Shown one piece after another: positions 7,860 through 26,075 of a stretch of 64,000 nucleotides of DNA (positions are counted from its first letter, which is position 1; each line of letters begins with the position of its first letter). The translations under genes and the position numbers were made by a program. The DNA comes from Armatimonadota bacterium (GTDB taxonomy: Bacteria; Armatimonadota; Fimbriimonadia; Fimbriimonadales; Fimbriimonadaceae): positions 434,001-498,000 of the forward strand of contig JAFDWS010000002.1 of NCBI GenBank assembly GCA_018268375.1, read 5' to 3'. The notes beneath the pieces are model-generated. The model ran no database searches. It was not told the DNA's origin and saw nothing but the letters and a program-made list of their open reading frames with translations.

Positions 7860-7939
7860 GCCCCGGTATGCACCCGCGCTTCGAACGCGGAGTAAGCTAG
7901 TGGATGAAAATGCGGGTTCGAATCCTGCTCGGGGCGCCA
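7860..7939 (+). tRNA. Non-canonical tRNA-Arg(TCG), rearranged D and anticodon arms
   Basis: Acceptor GCCCCGG/TCGGGGC, T-arm GCGGG-TTCGAAT-CCTGC, discriminator G, encoded CCA. Only 7 bases separate the acceptor from a perfect anticodon arm (CCGCG-CTTCGAA-CGCGG). The 21 bases after it contain a D-loop-like AGCTAGTGGATGAA. Total length is normal, so this looks like a changed arm order and not an added intron. Confidence 0.7.
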
Positions 7940-7958
7940 TTTTAGGTAAAATCAAATC

Positions 7959-8159
7959 ATGAACAGCTGGCACGTCAAAGACTGTACCGTTGAGCTTGCC
8001 GAGTACCAACTTGACATATTAAAGGACTTTCTGTCTAGTCCCATAGGTGGCGCAAACAGTTGGAAAAATTGGAGATTCGTTGGTGACCCCATGAACGCGC
8101 CCAACGAACCAACAACTACACCTCAAAGAACCTCTGTCCTCGACATGATGCTCTTATGA
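7959..8159 (+). CDS. Hypothetical protein, 66 aa
   Basis: ATG preceded by TAAAAT with a 6-base spacer. The C-terminus TSVLDMMLL resembles the ends of the next two proteins. The stop overlaps the next start (ATGATGA). Function unknown. Confidence 0.65.
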   Translation: MNSWHVKDCTVELAEYQLDILKDFLSSPIGGANSWKNWRFVGDPMNAPNEPTTTPQRTSVLDMMLL

Positions 8160-8368
8160 TGACCACAGACACCTTGCCTGGCACAGTTCCAGTGTGCCCA
8201 GACTGTGGGTGCCCTGATTTACAGCCGTCGACGGTCATTGCCGGCGTCGCGTGTACCCATTGCCCATACCAAGGGCCGTTTCCCAATATGGCGCTCAAAG
8301 AGACTGCGGCAGCATGGAGACCAAAGATAAATTCAGTCTTAGACGCAATGGTGGCAGACAGTGATTGA
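8156..8368 (+). CDS. Small zinc-ribbon protein, 70 aa
   Basis: Two Cys pairs, CPDCGCPDLQPS and CTHCPYQG, form a zinc-ribbon pattern. The end carries NSVLDAM. It overlaps the upstream gene by 4 bases and the downstream one by 8, so the trio is co-translated. Likely nucleic-acid or protein binding. Confidence 0.7.
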   Translation: MMTTDTLPGTVPVCPDCGCPDLQPSTVIAGVACTHCPYQGPFPNMALKETAAAWRPKINSVLDAMVADSD

Positions 8369-8594
8369 TTTATTCGGTCAAAATGGGGCGTACGCAAAAG
8401 CGTGCCCAGATTGTCATTGCTTAGACCTAGAGCCATCGCCGCACATGAACGGGCTCCGGTGCATGCAGTGCAAACTGAACATGTCGTATGACGAGGCGAG
8501 AGAAGTCAAAATCACAATCACCAAACGCAAGCGGCCTGGGCACAATTCACTCTTGGACCTATTGTTTGACACTTCAGACCAAGAACGGACATAA
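8361..8594 (+). CDS. Small zinc-ribbon protein, 77 aa (paralogue of previous)
   Basis: GTG start. CPDCHCLDLEPS and CMQCKLN match the preceding gene closely, and the tail has NSLLDLLFD. A tandem duplication followed by divergence is the likely origin. Confidence 0.7.
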   Translation: MIDLFGQNGAYAKACPDCHCLDLEPSPHMNGLRCMQCKLNMSYDEAREVKITITKRKRPGHNSLLDLLFDTSDQERT

Positions 8595-8601
8595 TACAGG
8601 T

Positions 8602-8922
8602 GTGAAAAAGGTTCTATTCCTTGTGTTCGGCGCAGTCTTGTGCATGGGTTGTCAAAACCAATCGGCCAACGCCGCTGCCGCAAAAGGACTCGCCCAGAAT
8701 TGGGTCAATGACATGTTGCCCGGCTACGAAATCAAGGGATTCAGCTGCGCGACGGTTGACACTGATTCAGACGGTTACGTCGCAGTAGACGTCATGGTGC
8801 AAAAAGAGGGCGGCGACAAACACCTCGTACAACTAGAGTGCCCGGCTGCTGGCGACCCGTTGAATTTCCAGAAAGGCTCCGGCTGCAAGTACAAACAGTC
8901 ACCGATGGAAAATCGTTGGTAA
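8602..8922 (+). CDS. Lipoprotein, 106 aa
   Basis: GTG preceded by CATAAT (8590-8595) with a 6-base spacer. Signal peptide MKKVLFLVFGAVLCMGC with a lipobox-like LCMGC, so Cys17 is the probable lipidation site. The remainder is an acidic soluble domain with DTDSDGYVAVDV. Expected to be membrane-anchored outside the cytoplasm. Confidence 0.7.
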   Translation: MKKVLFLVFGAVLCMGCQNQSANAAAAKGLAQNWVNDMLPGYEIKGFSCATVDTDSDGYVAVDVMVQKEGGDKHLVQLECPAAGDPLNFQKGSGCKYKQSPMENRW

Positions 8923-8931
8923 ACACAATCG

Positions 8932-9297
8932 TTGAACTTTGAAGAAGTATGGCGACACACAAACCGACTGGTATGGGCAATGAGCGAGTTCGACTATCCT
9001 GAACAAGAGTTTTACGACTCACTGAGGCGTGCCTTCACCGGTTCTAATGCAGCCGACTACATCACCTTTGACGGACACGTAGCACGCAACAAGTTCTTGC
9101 GACAGTGTATTCAATGGGGCGTGGACAACGACGTACTCTACGAAGACAAGACAACGTCCGAGTTGCTTTCTGATTCTCAATGGACAGTCCAAGCGTTCAG
9201 GTTGACAGACCGCGGGAAGGACTGGGTCGTACACGGCAAGTACCGACTCGACTTACCCCAGTCCAAACTAGACCGTGCGCTTGAAGGCACCATATAA
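8932..9297 (+). CDS. Hypothetical protein, 121 aa
   Basis: TTG start (no better one in frame), protein-like throughout: NFEEVWRHTNRLVW...FRLTDRGKDWVVHGKY. The LTDRGK stretch resembles ends of winged-helix proteins, but this is weak. It stops 4 bases before tRNA-Arg. Confidence 0.65.
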   Translation: MNFEEVWRHTNRLVWAMSEFDYPEQEFYDSLRRAFTGSNAADYITFDGHVARNKFLRQCIQWGVDNDVLYEDKTTSELLSDSQWTVQAFRLTDRGKDWVVHGKYRLDLPQSKLDRALEGTI

Positions 9298-9301
9298 ACA
9301 C

Positions 9302-9378
9302 CTCCCCTTAGTTCAGTGGATTAGAACGTCGGCTTGCGGAGCCGGAGGTCGCGTGTTCGAGTCACGCAGGGGAGGCCA
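9302..9378 (+). tRNA. tRNA-Arg(GCG), canonical
   Basis: Acceptor CTCCCCT/AGGGGAG, normal D-arm (AGTTCAGTGGATTAGAAC), anticodon arm TCGGC-TTGCGGA-GCCGG, T-arm GCGTG-TTCGAGT-CACGC, encoded CCA. A useful reference for the rearranged Arg tRNA just downstream. Confidence 0.9.
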
Positions 9379-9396
9379 TTTTTACTCACACCTCGC

Positions 9397-9475
9397 GCGC
9401 CCGTAGCCGAGTCGCCCTGCGAAGGCGATATCCGTAGCGGAGCTGTAAACGCAAGTTCAAATCTTGTCGGGCGCG
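9397..9475 (+). tRNA. Non-canonical tRNA-Arg(GCG), rearranged arms
   Basis: Acceptor GCGCCCG/CGGGCGC, extended by flanking bases to 13 bp (9391-9403 with 9468-9480). TAGCCGAG (8 bases) then a perfect anticodon arm TCGCC-CTGCGAA-GGCGA, then 22 bases with GTAGCGGAGCTG, then T-arm GCAAG-TTCAAAT-CTTGT. AGC before and GCT after the anticodon arm can pair around it. CCA is not encoded. Confidence 0.65.
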
Positions 9476-9489
9476 CGAGGTACAATCAA

Positions 9490-9691
9490 TTGTCGACAGG
9501 CAGAGAAGCCTTGGCTCTACGGAGAGAAAACTCAGCACTGAATCGCTAACGGAAGGAGACTCGTCGCTTGCACTTCCAAGTCAGCAACCCATACAGGCCT
9601 AGCGGGAAAGCGACGCTACGATGGCCGGGTTGGGGCCAATAGACAAATCAAGGCATAAAGCAGAAAGCTGGTTAAGCTCACCTGTCGACAA
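9490..9691 (+). ncRNA. Candidate structured RNA, ~200 nt
   Basis: No protein frame. TTGTCGACAGG (9490-9500) is the exact complement of CCTGTCGACAA (9681-9691), an 11-bp closing helix. Inside, CGTCGCTT (9562-9569) pairs with AAGCGACG (9608-9615), and GGCC...GGCC (9623-9637) and AGA..GCC/GGC..TCT hairpins are visible. No RNase P, tmRNA or group I signature was found. It lies between an Arg tRNA and a membrane-protein gene. Confidence 0.5.
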
Positions 9692-9711
9692 TATGGTACA
9701 CTTTGGTGCAC

Positions 9712-10704
9712 ATGTTGACTTCCTTGCAGCAAGAAAACGAGCTACAAACTGACACAGCTTTTATCAATGTCACCGGCACAGACCCAAGTACCGTAGCCAA
9801 GAAAGCTTGGAAGGCATGTAAACACTGGAGCTGGTGTGAGCATCGCTCGCGTTCTGTCATGGACGGAACAGCGCCAGCGTACTACTCCGCCTACCGATAT
9901 TGGGAACTGGTCATCAAACTTCCGTTGGGAGTGTATTGGGTCATACAATTATTCAACCACGTACCATGGGTGTGGGCTGCAGACGCTACACTTGATGATG
10001 GAACAAAGTCAGCTTTAACATCCACGTTCATGTTCTCAATCGTTTTTGGACTAGTGGCCGCTGCAGTGTTTAACATGCCCGAAGTGCGCACTAGAGGATT
10101 CTTGAAAATCACCGGACCGGCGACATTGGGCTACTGGATGTGGTGGAACGCAGGGTTCCGCAAAGAGCACCCTTACCCCAGTGACAGTTTTTCTGCCAGC
10201 GACCTTGAACTTATCATTCAGTACTTCGAACACGAGCCCAAACAACTGCACCATGTCATCAAGACAAGCGGTCAGGAAAAAATACAGGCACTCCAGGCGC
10301 TTATAGACGATTTGGAGCGCGCAGTGGTGCAACTCGACCAGCACACACGCGATGCAGACATAGGCGAACTAATGGTGAACCGTCGTGAAGTGGCCAAGAC
10401 GCAAATCGCCAACATGCAAATCAAACAAGCAGCGGCGCAAGGTCAAATCGCAGAAGCTGACAAAGCTCTAGAGCCGGTACTGGAACTCACTAGCAAACTG
10501 GAGCACCTGCTGAGCGCCATGCGCCTGACCGACAACATCAAAGCGTCGTTCGCAGAATGCGCTGCAGCCGACATCACCTTCAAAGAGAACCGGATGCTTC
10601 TCGATGCACTCTGGCATACCACCGCCAAGTCAGTTCAGTCTCTCGAGGCCATTGCAGCAAGATTGGATGCCCAACCGGCACAACAAACTGTTGTGTCACA
10701 ATAA
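9712..10704 (+). CDS. Membrane protein with coiled coil, 330 aa
   Basis: TACACT lies upstream; TTG 9703 or GTG 9706 are alternative starts. Two or three hydrophobic segments lie at ~70-85 and ~105-125 with nearby WMWWNAGF. The C-terminal half (~165-325) is helical and charged, with coiled-coil character (LQALIDDLERAVVQLDQ). Probably inner-membrane with a cytoplasmic coiled-coil domain. Function unknown. Confidence 0.65.
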   Translation: MLTSLQQENELQTDTAFINVTGTDPSTVAKKAWKACKHWSWCEHRSRSVMDGTAPAYYSAYRYWELVIKLPLGVYWVIQLFNHVPWVWAADATLDDGTKSALTSTFMFSIVFGLVAAAVFNMPEVRTRGFLKITGPATLGYWMWWNAGFRKEHPYPSDSFSASDLELIIQYFEHEPKQLHHVIKTSGQEKIQALQALIDDLERAVVQLDQHTRDADIGELMVNRREVAKTQIANMQIKQAAAQGQIAEADKALEPVLELTSKLEHLLSAMRLTDNIKASFAECAAADITFKENRMLLDALWHTTAKSVQSLEAIAARLDAQPAQQTVVSQ

Positions 10705-10708
10705 TGAC

Positions 10709-11293
10709 ATGTCTTTGTCGCGCGGAGAATTCGAAAGCCGGGTGTTCGCACGCGACCGCGGTGCTTGTGTAAACTGCAAGTTGGCCGCGGTCGATGCCCA
10801 CCACATCATCGACCGCAAACTGTTCGAAGACGGTGGTTATCACCTGGACAACGGAGTGGCGCTGTGTGCCGATTGTCACAAACTGGCAGAACGCTCACAA
10901 CTGAGTTGTCAACACCTGCGACAAGCGGCGGGCATCACACGCGTGATACTGCCTCCGGGTTTAGACCCTGACCTAACGTACGACAAGTGGGGGAACCCAG
11001 TCGAAGAACCATGGTATTTGACGTGCTTCTCTGAAACTGGAGTGAAAGACCCCGGGGAAATGCTGGCTTTGATGGCCGAGTTTGTACGGACGGCCGGTAT
11101 AGAAAACGAGTGCATTGAGTTTGTGGCCCAGTTTGTCGCGACGCACCCAGAACGTGTGTACAACCCACACTATGGCGACGAACGCCTGTGTGATTGCGGG
11201 CATCCATACTATCGCCACTTCGACACTTACGACAGTATGAGCGCTATAGGGTGCAAGTACTGTGCGTGCCAAGACTTCCAAGCAGCGACATGA
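10709..11293 (+). CDS. HNH endonuclease with Cys/His-rich tail, 194 aa
   Basis: ATG preceded by CACAAT and a 6-base spacer. HNH core: CVNCK, VDAHHIIDRKLF, LDNGVALCADCHKLAE (~22-65). The C-terminus has CDCGHPYYRHFD and GCKYCACQDF, a second metal-binding module seen in actinobacterial and phage proteins. Overlaps the next gene by ATGA. Not beside a tRNA, so it may serve another DNA-cutting role. Confidence 0.8.
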   Translation: MSLSRGEFESRVFARDRGACVNCKLAAVDAHHIIDRKLFEDGGYHLDNGVALCADCHKLAERSQLSCQHLRQAAGITRVILPPGLDPDLTYDKWGNPVEEPWYLTCFSETGVKDPGEMLALMAEFVRTAGIENECIEFVAQFVATHPERVYNPHYGDERLCDCGHPYYRHFDTYDSMSAIGCKYCACQDFQAAT

Positions 11294-12165
11294 GCTTCGT
11301 CCTACACGAATACGACCCGTACGACGGCGACAGGCTGGGTGTCTTCTTCTACGGAGAGACCGTACGGTACGGCTGGGAGAAAGACTTAGGGTTCCGCAGC
11401 TATGAGTTCAAACTCATGCTGGCAAAACCCTTGTGGGGATACGACCAGGCGATTCGACAAGAAGGCGGGGAGCTGCTGCGTTTTGTCTACTCAATGAACC
11501 TCAAAGACTTGCCGCGAGAAAAAATCGCGGTCTTTGGCGGCAAGAAGATAGTCAAAGTTTTGTGGGAGCAATTGTTGCTCGACGCAGACCCCAAGCAATA
11601 CAAGCACTGCCTGCAACGATTGAGAAGAAGACTGTCGACCAAACCCGTCCCGGCACGAATCGAGTACAAAGCTGGCGACTGGCACAAAGGCGACGAGTTT
11701 CTTGTATTCACCAAAGACACATCGCACAACTGGGGCGGACCCTTTGAGCAAGGCGGCAAACAGGGTTGCTGCGCGAATGTGACCGAAAGACCGTTCAGAG
11801 AGTTCCCTGTCGGAAACATCGCCGAAAATTGGCACTACTATCAACTGCCACGCCACTTGCGTGACACCACGACAGAAAAATGGGTCTACCATGCATCACC
11901 CGCAGAGCGACGCGCGAAATTTATCGGATTCAGCATGGACGACCAATTTCTCATCGCTAAAAACTACTTGAAGTGGCAGACCGACCATTCTTTGGCCGAG
12001 TGCCTGCCTTGGAGGTTGTGTTTGTGCGGGAACGACGACACTTCATATTCAAAGTACTTCGCAGACCGCAGCGCAGTGGAAGCCGAACTCGCGTACCTGA
12101 GAAAAATGCAACCTTTGGACTTTGAGCGCGACATCGTCCAACGCGACTACTATTTCACCAACTAA
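11290..12165 (+). CDS. Hypothetical protein, 291 aa
   Basis: Translationally coupled to the HNH gene. Soluble, rich in Tyr/Trp and charged residues, with scattered Cys (GCCANV, RLCLCGND). No known fold recognised. Confidence 0.7.
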   Translation: MSFVLHEYDPYDGDRLGVFFYGETVRYGWEKDLGFRSYEFKLMLAKPLWGYDQAIRQEGGELLRFVYSMNLKDLPREKIAVFGGKKIVKVLWEQLLLDADPKQYKHCLQRLRRRLSTKPVPARIEYKAGDWHKGDEFLVFTKDTSHNWGGPFEQGGKQGCCANVTERPFREFPVGNIAENWHYYQLPRHLRDTTTEKWVYHASPAERRAKFIGFSMDDQFLIAKNYLKWQTDHSLAECLPWRLCLCGNDDTSYSKYFADRSAVEAELAYLRKMQPLDFERDIVQRDYYFTN

Positions 12166-12181
12166 GCGCCATAATCACAAC

Positions 12182-12382
12182 ATGGCAAGCGGATACTCTC
12201 CCTGGTGGTTCAGGATGCTCACACGTTGGTGCCCGTGGCTGTTCATCGAATGCCCTGGGTACAACAAGCACTTCCGGTGGCGCACTTACTGTTGTTGCTG
12301 CCGGCACGAGAACTCCCAAGGCGACTATGAATGGAAAGACGGCAAATGGTCACCAGTGACACCAATGACCAAGCCGTGGTAA
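12182..12382 (+). CDS. Small Cys/Trp-rich protein, 66 aa
   Basis: ATG preceded by CATAAT (12170-12175) with a 6-base spacer. Contains RTYCCCCRHENSQG, a cluster of four Cys that may bind metal. Function unknown. Confidence 0.6.
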   Translation: MASGYSPWWFRMLTRWCPWLFIECPGYNKHFRWRTYCCCCRHENSQGDYEWKDGKWSPVTPMTKPW

Positions 12383-12393
12383 GAAAAGTTTGT

Positions 12394-12473
12394 CCCGCTG
12401 TATGCCCTCTCGGTCCTAACGAGGAGGAAGGCTAATGGACATCATGCAGGTTCGACTCCTGTCAGCGGGGCCA
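12394..12473 (+). tRNA. Non-canonical tRNA-Arg(CCT), rearranged arms
   Basis: Acceptor CCCGCTG/CAGCGGG, T-arm GCAGG-TTCGACT-CCTGT, encoded CCA. TATGCCC (7 bases), then anticodon arm TCTCG-GTCCTAA-CGAGG, then 21 bases holding AGGCTAATGGACATCAT, a D-loop-like segment. GCC before and GGC after the anticodon arm can pair. Same architecture as 7860, 9397 and 14679. A minus-strand HNH gene ends inside it. Confidence 0.7.
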
Positions 12474-12969
12474 AAGTTACCAAACCATGGTCAAATTCCC
12501 AATGATGATTGCGGCATAATGCAACCAAATTGTCCAGGTGATTGACCACACCAAGAGTGGTGTCCAAAGGAAAACTAGCTATATCCTTCACATGTGCAAC
12601 TTCATAATGTGTTGAATACCCACAATAACAGCAACACTTGGGCTTATCTGACGCTCTGTACACTCGACGTGCGTGGTCTCGCACGGTCGCATTGCGTTGC
12701 CAGTTATTGTTGGCAACATCCGCGAGGGTGCGGGATTCCCAATCCAAGCTCCGCTCCATGCAAGCACGACACCGGAGACGACCATAACCAGAAACTTTGT
12801 CAAGCTTGCACACAGTGCACGTTGGCAATTGTGCCCTGCGTTTGGGGTATAAGTGATTATTCATCCTACTTGCACATGAGCGAGAGCAGTAGTGCGCCTT
12901 GGTGCGCCGTACTTGGCTGGAGGCTTTCTCGAATACAGTTTGGCAACAACCACAGACAACAGAAACCAT
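12442..12969 (-). CDS. HNH endonuclease, 175 aa
   Basis: Start at the ATG that has AAAGG 6 bases upstream. N-terminal Cys pairs CGCCQ and YCSRSCASR, middle CTVCK/CRACM, then an HNH-like core: CCCYCG, YEVAHVKDI, HLDNLVALCRNHHWEFDHG. The last ~10 codons are antisense to the T and acceptor parts of tRNA-Arg(CCT), so this mobile gene abuts a tRNA from the opposite side. Confidence 0.8.
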   Translation of the reverse strand: MVSVVCGCCQTVFEKASSQVRRTKAHYCSRSCASRMNNHLYPKRRAQLPTCTVCKLDKVSGYGRLRCRACMERSLDWESRTLADVANNNWQRNATVRDHARRVYRASDKPKCCCYCGYSTHYEVAHVKDIASFPLDTTLGVVNHLDNLVALCRNHHWEFDHGLVTLAPLTGVEPA

Positions 12970-13030
12970 ACTCATCCTTTCTGTGAGTGGAACAACAGGA
13001 CCTGCAAAACTCACCGATGGTCGTTTTCGT

Positions 13031-13107
13031 CTCCTTGTAGCTCAGTGGAACAGAGCGCTGCCCTCCGAAGGCAGAGGCCGCGAGTTCGAGTCTCGCCAAG
13101 GAGGCCA
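13031..13107 (+). tRNA. tRNA-Arg(CCG), canonical
   Basis: Acceptor CTCCTTG/CAAGGAG, normal D-arm, anticodon arm CTGCC-CTCCGAA-GGCAG, T-arm GCGAG-TTCGAGT-CTCGC, encoded CCA. Confidence 0.93.
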
Positions 13108-13136
13108 TTTTTGACCACGATGACTATAATAACCTC

Positions 13137-13613
13137 GTGCGGCCGGGGAAGAATCAAAAGCCAATGCGAACAGTGACGTTGCCTGGCTACAATGTCTTGG
13201 ACATCAGTTGGGCTGTGCACGAGGCACTAGAGATACCTTTCGAACCCGACAACGAAACCCAGATGTGCTTGATAAAGCTGACAGCACAAGGCGCCGCAGA
13301 AGAATACGGAGAGAATCTAAACCAATTTTCTGTGGCACCGACCGAGTGGTACCGCATTCCGTATCCAATGGCATTGGGACTGCACGACCCGCACAATGGG
13401 TTCTTGCTAATGGGCACGACCGGTTTTGGTTGGCGGTGTGTCAAAGAGCGGCACATCGAAAGCCATACCTTGTTGGGTTTTGGATATGGGCACATAGACG
13501 TCGCCATTGAGCGCGCCAAACGTTTGCGCACTGTTTTGAGCGGTCACCAAGTCGAATACGTCGATTACGAGCTGTTCGAAGCCGTACGCACCGGCGTAGA
13601 CGCACTGCGCTAA
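13137..13613 (+). CDS. Hypothetical protein, 158 aa (paralogue of 16511 product)
   Basis: GTG preceded by TATAAT (13125-13130) and 6 bases, which supports this start over ATG 13164. The C-terminal part (RLRTVLSGHQVEYVDYELFE) matches the end of the 16511 protein (LKKVLAGHKVQYVDQVLKQE). Function unknown. Confidence 0.7.
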   Translation: MRPGKNQKPMRTVTLPGYNVLDISWAVHEALEIPFEPDNETQMCLIKLTAQGAAEEYGENLNQFSVAPTEWYRIPYPMALGLHDPHNGFLLMGTTGFGWRCVKERHIESHTLLGFGYGHIDVAIERAKRLRTVLSGHQVEYVDYELFEAVRTGVDALR

Positions 13614-13634
13614 AACCTATGGTAAAATGACGGC

Positions 13635-14477
13635 ATGACAGTCGTTTACACCATGGTCCCGATTGAAGGCATTGTTGAGGCCGGCCACCGGCCTGTGCCT
13701 ATGGCGGTTGCCAAAGCCAAGCTTGAGACCATCATCACAAGCGACTTGCTGCCGCGCAGGGTCATCACGTCTTACACCCTCATTGAGGACAGGCAGTTCA
13801 AATATCCGTCTGACACACCTGACTTGCTCAAGACTACTTGGTTTTTCGACGGCTTAGACCTGAACACAATCAAAACCGAACTGGAATACCTCTACCGCGA
13901 GTCAGTGCGCGAGCATCAGGAAACCGTGGCCGAGACCACCAAAGCATGCAAAACTGCCTCGGACGAGGAGCTACTGGAACTATACGGCAAGTATCACTAC
14001 AGCACTGCGCGACAACGTGAGGATTACACCCAGGCATTGAAAAACCTTGAAGACAACTGGGACACGTGGGACAAAGTAAAAGATGACCTTCTAGGCAGCG
14101 GATATGCCCGGCGTCGCTACGAGATTTCACGCGCGCTGAAGGACATTGAGTCTATTTATGGCCGTTGTTTCTTTGAGGACATCAACAAGCTAAAAGAGTA
14201 CTTGACCGTAATAGACATAGGTCGCGACGAAGTAGTTTCGAGAGTAATCTCCATGTGCCACGACTGGTGCAGGCGAAATACTTCACACTTTGAAAACCAA
14301 TGTGGCGACGCTGCGTTTTATGGCGCGGGCTATTGGGTGGCTCGACTTGTCAAGAACGAAGAGTGGGAGCAGCGCGAGTGGGACAAGAACGACATCAGCC
14401 TAGAGGACAGCCTCACACAATGGAATTTACCGTTCTTTATAGTGCCTGTCAAACAAACTGTGGCCTCAGCGGCATAA
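13635..14477 (+). CDS. Hypothetical protein, 280 aa
   Basis: ATG with TAAAAT (13623-13628) 6 bases upstream. Mostly helical, charged, with CHDWCRRN and YGAGYWVARL near the end. No family recognised. Unidirectional with its neighbours. Confidence 0.7.
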   Translation: MTVVYTMVPIEGIVEAGHRPVPMAVAKAKLETIITSDLLPRRVITSYTLIEDRQFKYPSDTPDLLKTTWFFDGLDLNTIKTELEYLYRESVREHQETVAETTKACKTASDEELLELYGKYHYSTARQREDYTQALKNLEDNWDTWDKVKDDLLGSGYARRRYEISRALKDIESIYGRCFFEDINKLKEYLTVIDIGRDEVVSRVISMCHDWCRRNTSHFENQCGDAAFYGAGYWVARLVKNEEWEQREWDKNDISLEDSLTQWNLPFFIVPVKQTVASAA

Positions 14478-14484
14478 TCAGTAT

Positions 14485-14676
14485 GTGAAGACATTCAACA
14501 TCATTCGTGTCGGCAACGACGACTACCCGGTCAATGACGCCGTGGTCGAAAAATTCAAAACAGAATTCATCGAAGCGGTCGCAAACGACCGTGCCTACAT
14601 CACCGGTATTCCCTTCAGCTGCCATCCCGTTCTTTTGGACGATGACGACACGGAGAATACTGACACCACTCAATAA
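14485..14676 (+). CDS. Hypothetical protein, 63 aa
   Basis: GTG with CATAAT (14473-14478) 6 bases upstream. Small acidic protein ending DDDDTENTDTTQ. The stop is 2 bases before a rearranged Arg tRNA. Confidence 0.6.
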   Translation: MKTFNIIRVGNDDYPVNDAVVEKFKTEFIEAVANDRAYITGIPFSCHPVLLDDDDTENTDTTQ

Positions 14677-14678
14677 AT

Positions 14679-14761
14679 GCCCGGGTAGCCGTCGCGGTCT
14701 TCTAAACCGTCAAGCGTAGGTGGAGCTGCAAACGTGAGTTCGAATCTCACCTCGGGCGCCA
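14679..14761 (+). tRNA. Non-canonical tRNA-Arg(TCT), rearranged arms
   Basis: Acceptor GCCCGGG/CTCGGGC, TAGCCGTC (8 bases), anticodon arm GCGGT-CTTCTAA-ACCGT, 23 bases including GTAGGTGGAGCTGC, T-arm GTGAG-TTCGAAT-CTCAC, encoded CCA. Strongly similar layout and wording to 9397 (TAGCCG...GTAG..GGAGCTG.AAAC). Confidence 0.7.
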
Positions 14762-25823: not shown

Positions 25824-26075
25824 ATGGCTACCTACACTGTACTAGCAGGCAGCGGCGACTTGAAGCTCTCGTACGACCCTGCCAACAAAGACCAGGTCGC
25901 TGCGGCGAAAAAGGTCTTCAACGACCTCGTCAAAAAGGGCATGAAGGTTTACGTGGACACTAAGTCCAAGTCTAGGCGCAAAGAGGTCACTGAGTTCAGC
26001 CCCACTCAGACCAAGCTGGTGTTCGTACCTCAGTTGACTGGCGGAATGTCGAAGACCAAAACGACATGCCGGTAG
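25824..26075 (+). CDS. Small basic protein, 83 aa
   Basis: TAGAAT lies 9 bases before ATG. Lys-rich, with AAAKKVFNDLVKKGMKVYV, a pattern seen in short phage proteins with one alpha/beta unit. Function unknown. Overlaps the next gene by 10 bases. Confidence 0.65.
   Translation: MATYTVLAGSGDLKLSYDPANKDQVAAAKKVFNDLVKKGMKVYVDTKSKSRRKEVTEFSPTQTKLVFVPQLTGGMSKTKTTCR

Follow-up and report, generated by a model that had tools for sequence, protein, structure and literature searches.

In a 64,000-nucleotide stretch of an Armatimonadota genome (hereafter the window: positions 434001–498000 of the 1.36-Mb contig JAFDWS010000002.1, assembly GCA_018268375.1), four genes look like transfer RNA (tRNA) genes for arginine whose parts stand in an unusual order. 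The segment comprising the 5′ strand of the D stem and the D loop (nucleotides 10–21 in standard numbering) sits in the variable loop between nucleotides 47 and 48, and nucleotide 9 directly adjoins nucleotide 22. Read in this way, the chain order is 1–9 / 22–43 / 44–47 / 10–21 / 48–76, a non-circular permutation of the tRNA chain. The class extends beyond the window: it is widespread in phages and includes Ile genes as well as Arg genes with all six anticodons. We consider it very probable that the window genes are working arginine tRNAs that take up the predicted L shape despite the permuted chain and fill codons uncovered by canonical tRNAs. One 5′-to-3′ succession of arms is regarded as common to all tRNAs, and the exceptions known to us either lose arms or permute only the gene.

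Segment order of the four window genes

All four genes (Table 1) have the same element order: a 7-base-pair (bp) acceptor stem, 7 or 8 nucleotides (nt), an anticodon arm of 5 bp with a 7-nt loop, 21–23 nt that include D-loop text, a T arm of 5 bp with a 7-nt loop, the second acceptor strand and nucleotide 73. CCA is encoded by three of them, the exception being the gene at 9397. The acceptor stem, the anticodon arm and the T arm with its TTCRA-type loop are those of canonical tRNAs (features that our scanner, described below, demands in relatives), but there is no complete D arm between acceptor and anticodon arm, and 22–43 precedes 10–21. Nor is the 3′ half encoded upstream of the 5′ half, as in circular permutation, since the acceptor strands lie at both ends. 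Taken together, sequence and covariation show the parent fold's helices arranged in a chain that is permuted non-circularly.

Table 1. Permuted tRNA-Arg genes of the window, their parts, and two canonical tRNA-Arg genes given for contrast (window positions; R1 is the model described in the text, R2 and R3 are further models)
Gene	Position	Strand	Anticodon	Detection and scores	Acceptor, 5′ strand	5′ linker	Anticodon arm	Following segment	D loop	Segment before T arm	T arm	Acceptor, 3′ strand	3′ end
Permuted tRNA-Arg(UCG), 7-nt subtype	7860..7939	+	TCG	R1 94.9, R2 77.7 bits (in training set of both)	7860-7866	7867-7873 (U8, A9 and 22-26)	7874-7890	7891-7897 (variable and 10-12)	7898-7904 (U, D loop A14-A20)	7905-7911 (up to Y48)	7912-7928	7929-7935	GCCA
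Permuted tRNA-Arg(GCG), 8-nt subtype	9397..9478	+	GCG	R1 80.1, R3 82.0 bits (in training set of both)	9397-9403	9404-9411	9412-9428	9429-9434	9435-9441	9442-9450	9451-9467	9468-9474	GCGA, without encoded CCA
Permuted tRNA-Arg(CCU), 7-nt subtype	12394..12473	+	CCT	R1 79.4, R2 72.7 bits (in training set of both)	12394-12400	12401-12407	12408-12424	12425-12432	12433-12439	12440-12445	12446-12462	12463-12469	GCCA
Permuted tRNA-Arg(UCU), 8-nt subtype	14679..14761	+	TCT	R1 84.0, R3 93.0 bits (in training set of both)	14679-14685	14686-14693	14694-14710	14711-14716	14717-14724	14725-14733	14734-14750	14751-14757	GCCA
Canonical tRNA-Arg(GCG), contrast	9302..9378	+	GCG	ARAGORN; RF00005 62.3 bits
Canonical tRNA-Arg(CCG), contrast	13031..13107	+	CCG	ARAGORN; RF00005 67.3 bits

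The original prediction, made from the sequence alone, had described four genes with normal acceptor, anticodon and T arms, with 7–8 nt between acceptor and anticodon stem and 21–23 nt of D-loop-bearing text behind the anticodon arm; reading the sequence confirmed the arms and both counts. The genes at 9302 and 13031, named there as canonical, are so according to ARAGORN and RF00005. The statement that all are Arg genes holds for the window but fails for the class as a whole, which includes Ile. Two interpretations had been offered, exchanged arms or an anticodon arm inside the D loop. Both were essentially right and turn out to be one structure, as the D-stem pairs enclose the anticodon arm. 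The proposed GCC/GGC pairing is the D stem and AGC/GCT an additional outer stem of the 8-nt subtype, and both are backed by covariation in relatives.

ARAGORN overlooks all four genes, and the tRNA model of Rfam is divided over them. ARAGORN listed 20 tRNAs in the window and the Rfam model RF00005 with fast filters 19, none of the four among either. When the whole genome was searched with RF00005 at the 29-bit cut-off, the genes at 9397, 14679 and 7860 did appear (38.0, 35.8 and 32.7 bits), at scores well under those of most canonical tRNAs, which reach 75.4 bits, and 12394 was not listed. R1, a covariance model built from the four genes using only acceptor, anticodon and T stems, scored them at 79.4–94.9 bits in the 3.83-Mb assembly, the next of its 56 matches being a canonical tRNA at 38.5 bits. 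ARAGORN, a relaxed Infernal-type scan and a four-gene covariance model were among the checks suggested along with the prediction; the covariance model set the four genes apart from all else in the assembly, and relatives were found in phages. With strict filters, R1 found nothing above 42.7 bits outside the source assembly in 60 relatives of the source genome. A tRNA-Sec assignment (RF01852) was rejected: when the region was scanned with relaxed settings, weak scores (31.2, 28.4 and 22.0 bits against a gathering threshold of 47) came from three of the four genes, and their anticodons are those of Arg, not UCA. We also observed that the acceptor stem of the 9397 gene continues outward as a perfect 13-bp inverted repeat spanning 9391–9484 (CCTCGCGCGCCCG / CGGGCGCGCGAGG).

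Relatives in phages and the covarying D stem

Viral contigs were searched with a pattern of Arg anticodon loop, GYGGA and T loop, then with anticodon-blind patterns containing GGA and then GGT; the latter two scans give lower bounds, so all class counts are to be read as minima. The scanner demanded acceptor, anticodon and T pairing, a 5′ linker opening with TA, and a D-loop motif between the anticodon and T arms. It thereby required U8, A9, A14, R15 and G18G19, and Y48 earned one score point. The D-stem and outer-stem pairs played no part in the detection rules. The 221 raw matches in 3.6 Mb of fetched DNA reduced to 177 distinct ones and, once two had been removed by eye as ordinary tRNA text (Pro-AGG in locus L248 and Lys-CTT in L332), to at least 175 members at 144 loci, including the window's four. 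Under the same rules reversed, complemented and Markov-resampled DNA each gave no match, and the four genes and their relatives are therefore not a product of chance.

At least 119 members are Arg (anticodons ACG 44, TCT 44, TCG 14, CCT 14, GCG 2 and CCG 1, so that all six are used) and at least 51 are Ile (TAT 43, GAT 8), with four CAU members and a single Lys(CUU). The 7-nt subtype accounts for 139 and the 8-nt subtype for 36. Most members lie in viral contigs, and phages from eight or more host genera share one architecture. Named carriers are Mesorhizobium phage Cp1R7A-A1, Xanthomonas phage XacN1, Microbacterium phages Zooman and Pumpernickel, Stenotrophomonas phage RAS14, Escherichia phage 121Q, Klebsiella phage Roth37, Salmonella phage FelixO1, Streptomyces phage Francob, Erwinia phage Ep030 and Pseudomonas phage HHBS10_2, together with one 634-kb uncultured phage. 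Over 13 whole phage records, R2 gave 15 matches at 67.8–84.2 bits in 12 of them, the next best reaching at most 43.9; eight of these named-phage matches belong to the R2 training set. R1, trained on the window genes only, scored the twelve named-phage members at 48–77 bits. In a BLAST search with one UCU member, 340 phage records matched; the match spanned 80% or more of the query in 160 of them, and all five of these that we opened proved to be members. In existing annotation the gene is tRNA-Leu(taa) for 121Q, tRNA-OTHER for Roth37, and not a tRNA in the other annotated records opened. Run on the 175 members, ARAGORN missed 167, miscalled three and agreed on five.

The only one of the 13 records with no R2 match was the T5-like Salmonella phage S124, in which no clear member was seen. 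Its 'tRNA-Ser-ACT' (locus L255, 4969–5041) has GTAACTGGT text just 5′ of the T arm and no clean anticodon arm, and is perhaps a decayed permuted tRNA. Genome contigs were scanned with one ACG pattern and one D-loop text. Four of the five matches were members by scanner and R1, and a match in a Lachnospiraceae metagenome-assembled genome (MAG) was rejected by them. Bacterial carriers comprise three Bradyrhizobium genomes and one Bacteroidetes MAG, all with the gene inside tRNA clusters, and a Sinorhizobium meliloti plasmid also carries one member (R1 56.8 bits). With the 121Q gene as the single query, nothing in 5,426 E. coli genomes matched at E 0.001.

The D stem emerges when the 7-nt linker past the acceptor is read as U8 A9 N22 N23 N24 N25 N26. 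In the 7-nt subtype N23, N24 and N25 then pair with the three bases ahead of the U-A14 of the displaced D loop. To reduce the effect of shared ancestry, of which our other statistics take no account, we used cluster representatives at 75% identity (60 seven-nt, 22 eight-nt). Pair 12:23 forms in 60 of the 60 seven-nt representatives (CG 50, GC 4, TA 3, AT 3) and pair 11:24 in 59, with four Watson–Crick types; both form in 22 of 22 eight-nt representatives. Across all seven-nt members, 11:24 is paired in 138 of 139, compared with 68.8 ± 4.6 when partners are shuffled. The D-stem pairs of the eight-nt members form in 36, 36 and 24 of 36, and those of their outer stem in 28, 30 and 35 (as AGC/GCU, AAC/GUU, AGU/ACU, AGA/UCU or ACA/UGU).

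Pairing was also counted on two alignments. In A3 (45 of the 60 seven-nt representatives plus six others) and A4 (19 of the 22 eight-nt representatives plus five others), 95.8% and 97.5% of paired cells, respectively, hold a pair, compared with 31–45% when partners are slid by one to three columns, and the covariation score was equalled by none of 500 shuffles in either. For the 8-nt subtype RNAalifold found the complete fold unprompted. The original prediction had named drift without compensatory change as the outcome that would speak against it; the helices of the relatives show the opposite. Positions 15 and 48 covary as well (A-U 154, G-C 20, G-U 1 of 175; Fisher 2e-25), and the base before Y48 is A in 173 of 175 members, as expected of A21. 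The covariation of R15:Y48 and the retention of A21 thus lead to the chain order given at the outset.

How would such a chain fold? In known tRNA structure, nucleotides 9, 22–23, 44–45, the pair 10:25, 21 and 48 are neighbors within the core, and the three new joints should therefore be short. The D-stem strands keep their direction, 22–25 running into the anticodon stem and 10–13 into A14, and a normal L shape is therefore predicted: acceptor stacked on T, D on anticodon, the D loop docked on the T loop, and only three linkers rewired.

Identity nucleotides, codon supply and alternative readings

Nucleotide 20, which now lies in the displaced loop, follows the isotype. Among the 137 members of three anticodon-blind patterns, A20 occurs in 92 Arg genes and one other, and U20 in no Arg gene and 44 others (Fisher 3e-35); in the GGT pattern, U20 goes with Ile-type anticodons in 44 of 44 members. 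Nucleotide 73 is A in 55 of 55 Ile-type members. In each of the four window genes nucleotide 20 is A, 35 is C, 36 is G or U and 73 is G, in agreement with the bacterial tRNA-Arg identity set. According to the accessible part of PMC9976931, A20 and C35 are the main bacterial Arg determinants, joined by U/G36 and A/G73 (its table gives U73 too), and A73, U20, C4-G69 and U12-A23 are among those for Ile. It looks as if the displaced D loop is still read by synthetases, because nucleotide 20 tracks isotype in keeping with these known determinants. In the proposed mechanism, the permuted D loop would present A20 to arginyl-tRNA synthetase (ArgRS) and U20 to the isoleucyl enzyme.

The permuted genes also appear to answer a decoding need. 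Canonical tRNAs accompany them at 133 of the 144 loci. Of 65 cases in which a permuted Arg gene has canonical Arg genes at its locus, 7 show a repeated anticodon, compared with 16.5 ± 3.0 after shuffling (5 of 5000 shuffles were as low). On this evidence, permuted Arg genes usually provide an anticodon absent from the neighboring canonical Arg genes, and the permuted RNA would decode codons that the element's canonical tRNAs leave uncovered. Of the 51 permuted Ile(GAU/UAU) genes, 7 lie at a locus that also has a canonical one, two with the same anticodon, numbers too small to weigh. In the window, the canonical Arg tRNAs are predicted to read CGU/CGC and CGG and the permuted ones CGA, CGC, AGG and AGA; CGA, AGA and AGG account for 0.161, 0.087 and 0.119 of Arg codons in 156 open reading frames sampled from the low-G+C part of the contig (see below). 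FelixO1 carries a permuted tRNA-Arg(UCU) at 25951–26032. In the accessible part of its genome paper (PMC3185647), AGA is among the over-used codons and a tRNA for it might have been expected; the permuted gene may fit this gap.

Several observations weigh against the proposed fold and function. Conservation of U8, A9, A14, R15, G18G19 and, in part, Y48 follows from how the search was built. Pair 10:25 forms in just 38 of the 60 seven-nt representatives, and one of five covariation measures, the count of pairs with double-sided changes, was reached by 35 of 500 shuffles for A3 and 4 of 500 for A4. In the 7-nt subtype RNAalifold predicted acceptor, anticodon and T stems but no D stem, which means that the D stem there rests on covariation. 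Identity elements are incompletely kept: nucleotide 73 varies among Arg members (46 G, 40 T, 30 A, 3 C), C4-G69 is retained in 35 of 55 Ile-type members, and U12-A23 occurs in at most 4 of the 139 seven-nt members. CCA is encoded in just 6 of 55 Ile-type members, and 9397 lacks it too. Finally, ordinary RF00005 gives three of the four window genes 32.7–38.0 bits without any permuted reading.

The last point and the RNAalifold result in the 7-nt subtype would both suit a tRNA that lacks a D arm and has a long variable region, in which case the 5′ linker replaces the D arm and the D-loop likeness of the 21–23 nt is incidental; RF00005 also places three of six named-phage members above the cut-off (31.7–44.5 bits). 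Some animal mitochondrial tRNAs do have a linker in place of the D arm. The permuted genes share with them the short acceptor–anticodon linker, but the D arm that is lost there is kept elsewhere here. Pair counts and the 8-nt RNAalifold fold, in which the outer stem around the D loop emerges unprompted, indicate a D stem and a D loop; moreover, D-stem pairs and R15:Y48 covary, A21 is retained and nucleotide 20 follows anticodon identity, all of which makes this explanation very unlikely. A tRNA-shaped decoy or regulator acting off the ribosome, for example as bait for a host tRNA-cleaving defense, strikes us as quite unlikely. It would agree with the mostly viral location of the members and with host tRNA-targeting defenses and evading phage tRNAs that are in print (a title cited in the accessible part of PMC12851939). 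A decoy would, however, need neither nucleotides 20 and 73 that match the anticodon nor the CCA encoded in 97 of 119 Arg members, and the use of six Arg anticodons besides Ile, with permuted Arg genes filling canonical gaps, also argues against it.

It is also conceivable that only the gene is permuted and that its RNA is cut and rejoined into standard order, like the products of circularly permuted tRNA genes. RtcB-like ligase genes do lie near the permuted genes in phages Zooman and Pumpernickel, but none is annotated within 3–5 kb in the other annotated stretches opened. The encoded order itself allows the D stem and D loop to form, the termini are normal acceptor ends, and moving an internal segment would take three cuts and three joins; we regard rejoining as extremely improbable. 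The chance that the genes are decaying pseudogenes seems close to negligible: that ARAGORN misses most members would fit decay, but every helix shows compensatory changes, with a covariation score beyond all shuffles, and one architecture is maintained across phages of eight or more host genera.

The segment order, the covarying helices and positions, the association of identity nucleotides with anticodons and the distribution of the class follow from the sequences themselves. We infer that the permuted tRNAs are transcribed into a mature RNA, processed, folded, charged and used in decoding. More broadly, the class is likely to represent a second tRNA topology, non-circularly permuted, covering Arg, Ile and perhaps Lys anticodons, mainly phage-borne and working on the ribosome, even though its path through the D arm would differ in order from that of all other tRNAs described.

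Genomic setting, known systems and implications

Sampled guanine-plus-cytosine (G+C) content of the contig is about 0.52–0.56 up to about 530 kb and about 0.60 beyond. The step from about 0.54 to about 0.60 near contig 531 kb suggests either an integrated element of more than 520 kb or an assembly joint. Since the low-G+C part holds two tail-type protein matches (one of them largely collagen-like) as well as dense tRNA clusters, it appears to be a huge phage-like element that is either integrated or attached through an assembly joint. One of the element's tRNAs has anticodon CTA (ARAGORN 'Pyl'; locus L004, 6178–6252) and is a possible amber suppressor. A Ro60/TROVE-type protein gene adjoins tRNA clusters in the element (L006, 16225–17988) and in phages Pumpernickel (L254) and Francob (L384), two carriers of permuted tRNAs. 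In Mesorhizobium phage Cp1R7A-A1, a GOLLD RNA (L250, 5608–6070) lies inside the tRNA cluster.

The low-G+C part also encodes an ArgRS-like frame (contig 371901–373613; 571 codons open, 559 amino acids from Met). The assembly, whose completeness is 92.6%, has no other PF00750 match, so that a host ArgRS copy may be missing. Named relatives of this ArgRS are from Fimbriimonadaceae/Armatimonadota, which suggests a host in that group. The frame reads TVAA at what we take to be the site of the HIGH motif. The idea that this enzyme is a specialized partner of the permuted tRNAs was dropped, as the ArgRS of Fimbriimonas ginsengisoli has TVGS at the same place; TVAA looks like a lineage trait. A peptide-pattern search for ArgRS in viral contigs found nothing.

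Canonical tRNA-Arg and tRNA-Ile (RF00005) have in common with the permuted class the three arms, a D stem and loop, U8, A14, R15:Y48, G18G19, A21, the mark at nucleotide 20 and a similar length; they differ in carrying 10–21 between 9 and 22 rather than between 47 and 48. Circularly permuted tRNA genes likewise have a non-standard segment order. As the accessible part of PMC10085705 describes them, however, their fragments are reversed and the transcript is circularized and cleaved to the standard form, a different order as the original prediction had stated, whereas the phage class has normal termini of its own and a moved internal segment. The same kind of topological change is found in the non-circularly permuted hammerhead ribozymes of Eckert et al. 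2023 (PMC10085705), which are ribozymes and not tRNAs; according to the accessible part of that paper, natural RNAs had offered no known example of non-circular permutation until then. Table 1 of the ARTEMIS paper (PMC11472068, accessible part) lists the tRNA-like structures of turnip yellow mosaic virus and brome mosaic virus as non-circular, and bacterial Y RNA as circular, relative to the tRNA shape. These combine a changed chain order with a tRNA-like three-dimensional shape, but they are viral RNA domains or Ro-binding RNA mimics, not free tRNA genes with anticodon sets. A literature search of published papers, few of them from subscription journals, yielded no report of permuted phage tRNAs; natural non-circular permutation appeared there for hammerhead ribozymes and viral tRNA mimics, and none for a tRNA. 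The accessible parts of the XacN1 and Sf14 phage papers make no mention of such a gene.

If the proposed reading is true, translation reads the shape of a tRNA and not its connectivity, the fold being kept while the chain order is changed, and a central RNA would provide a case of natural non-circular permutation. The tRNA content of phages would be undercounted, and permuted genes may close gaps like that of the AGA tRNA in FelixO1. The presence of the class in phages as well known as FelixO1 and 121Q makes it readily testable. The dominance of Arg and Ile, both with identity nucleotides in the D loop, poses a question for synthetase biochemistry.

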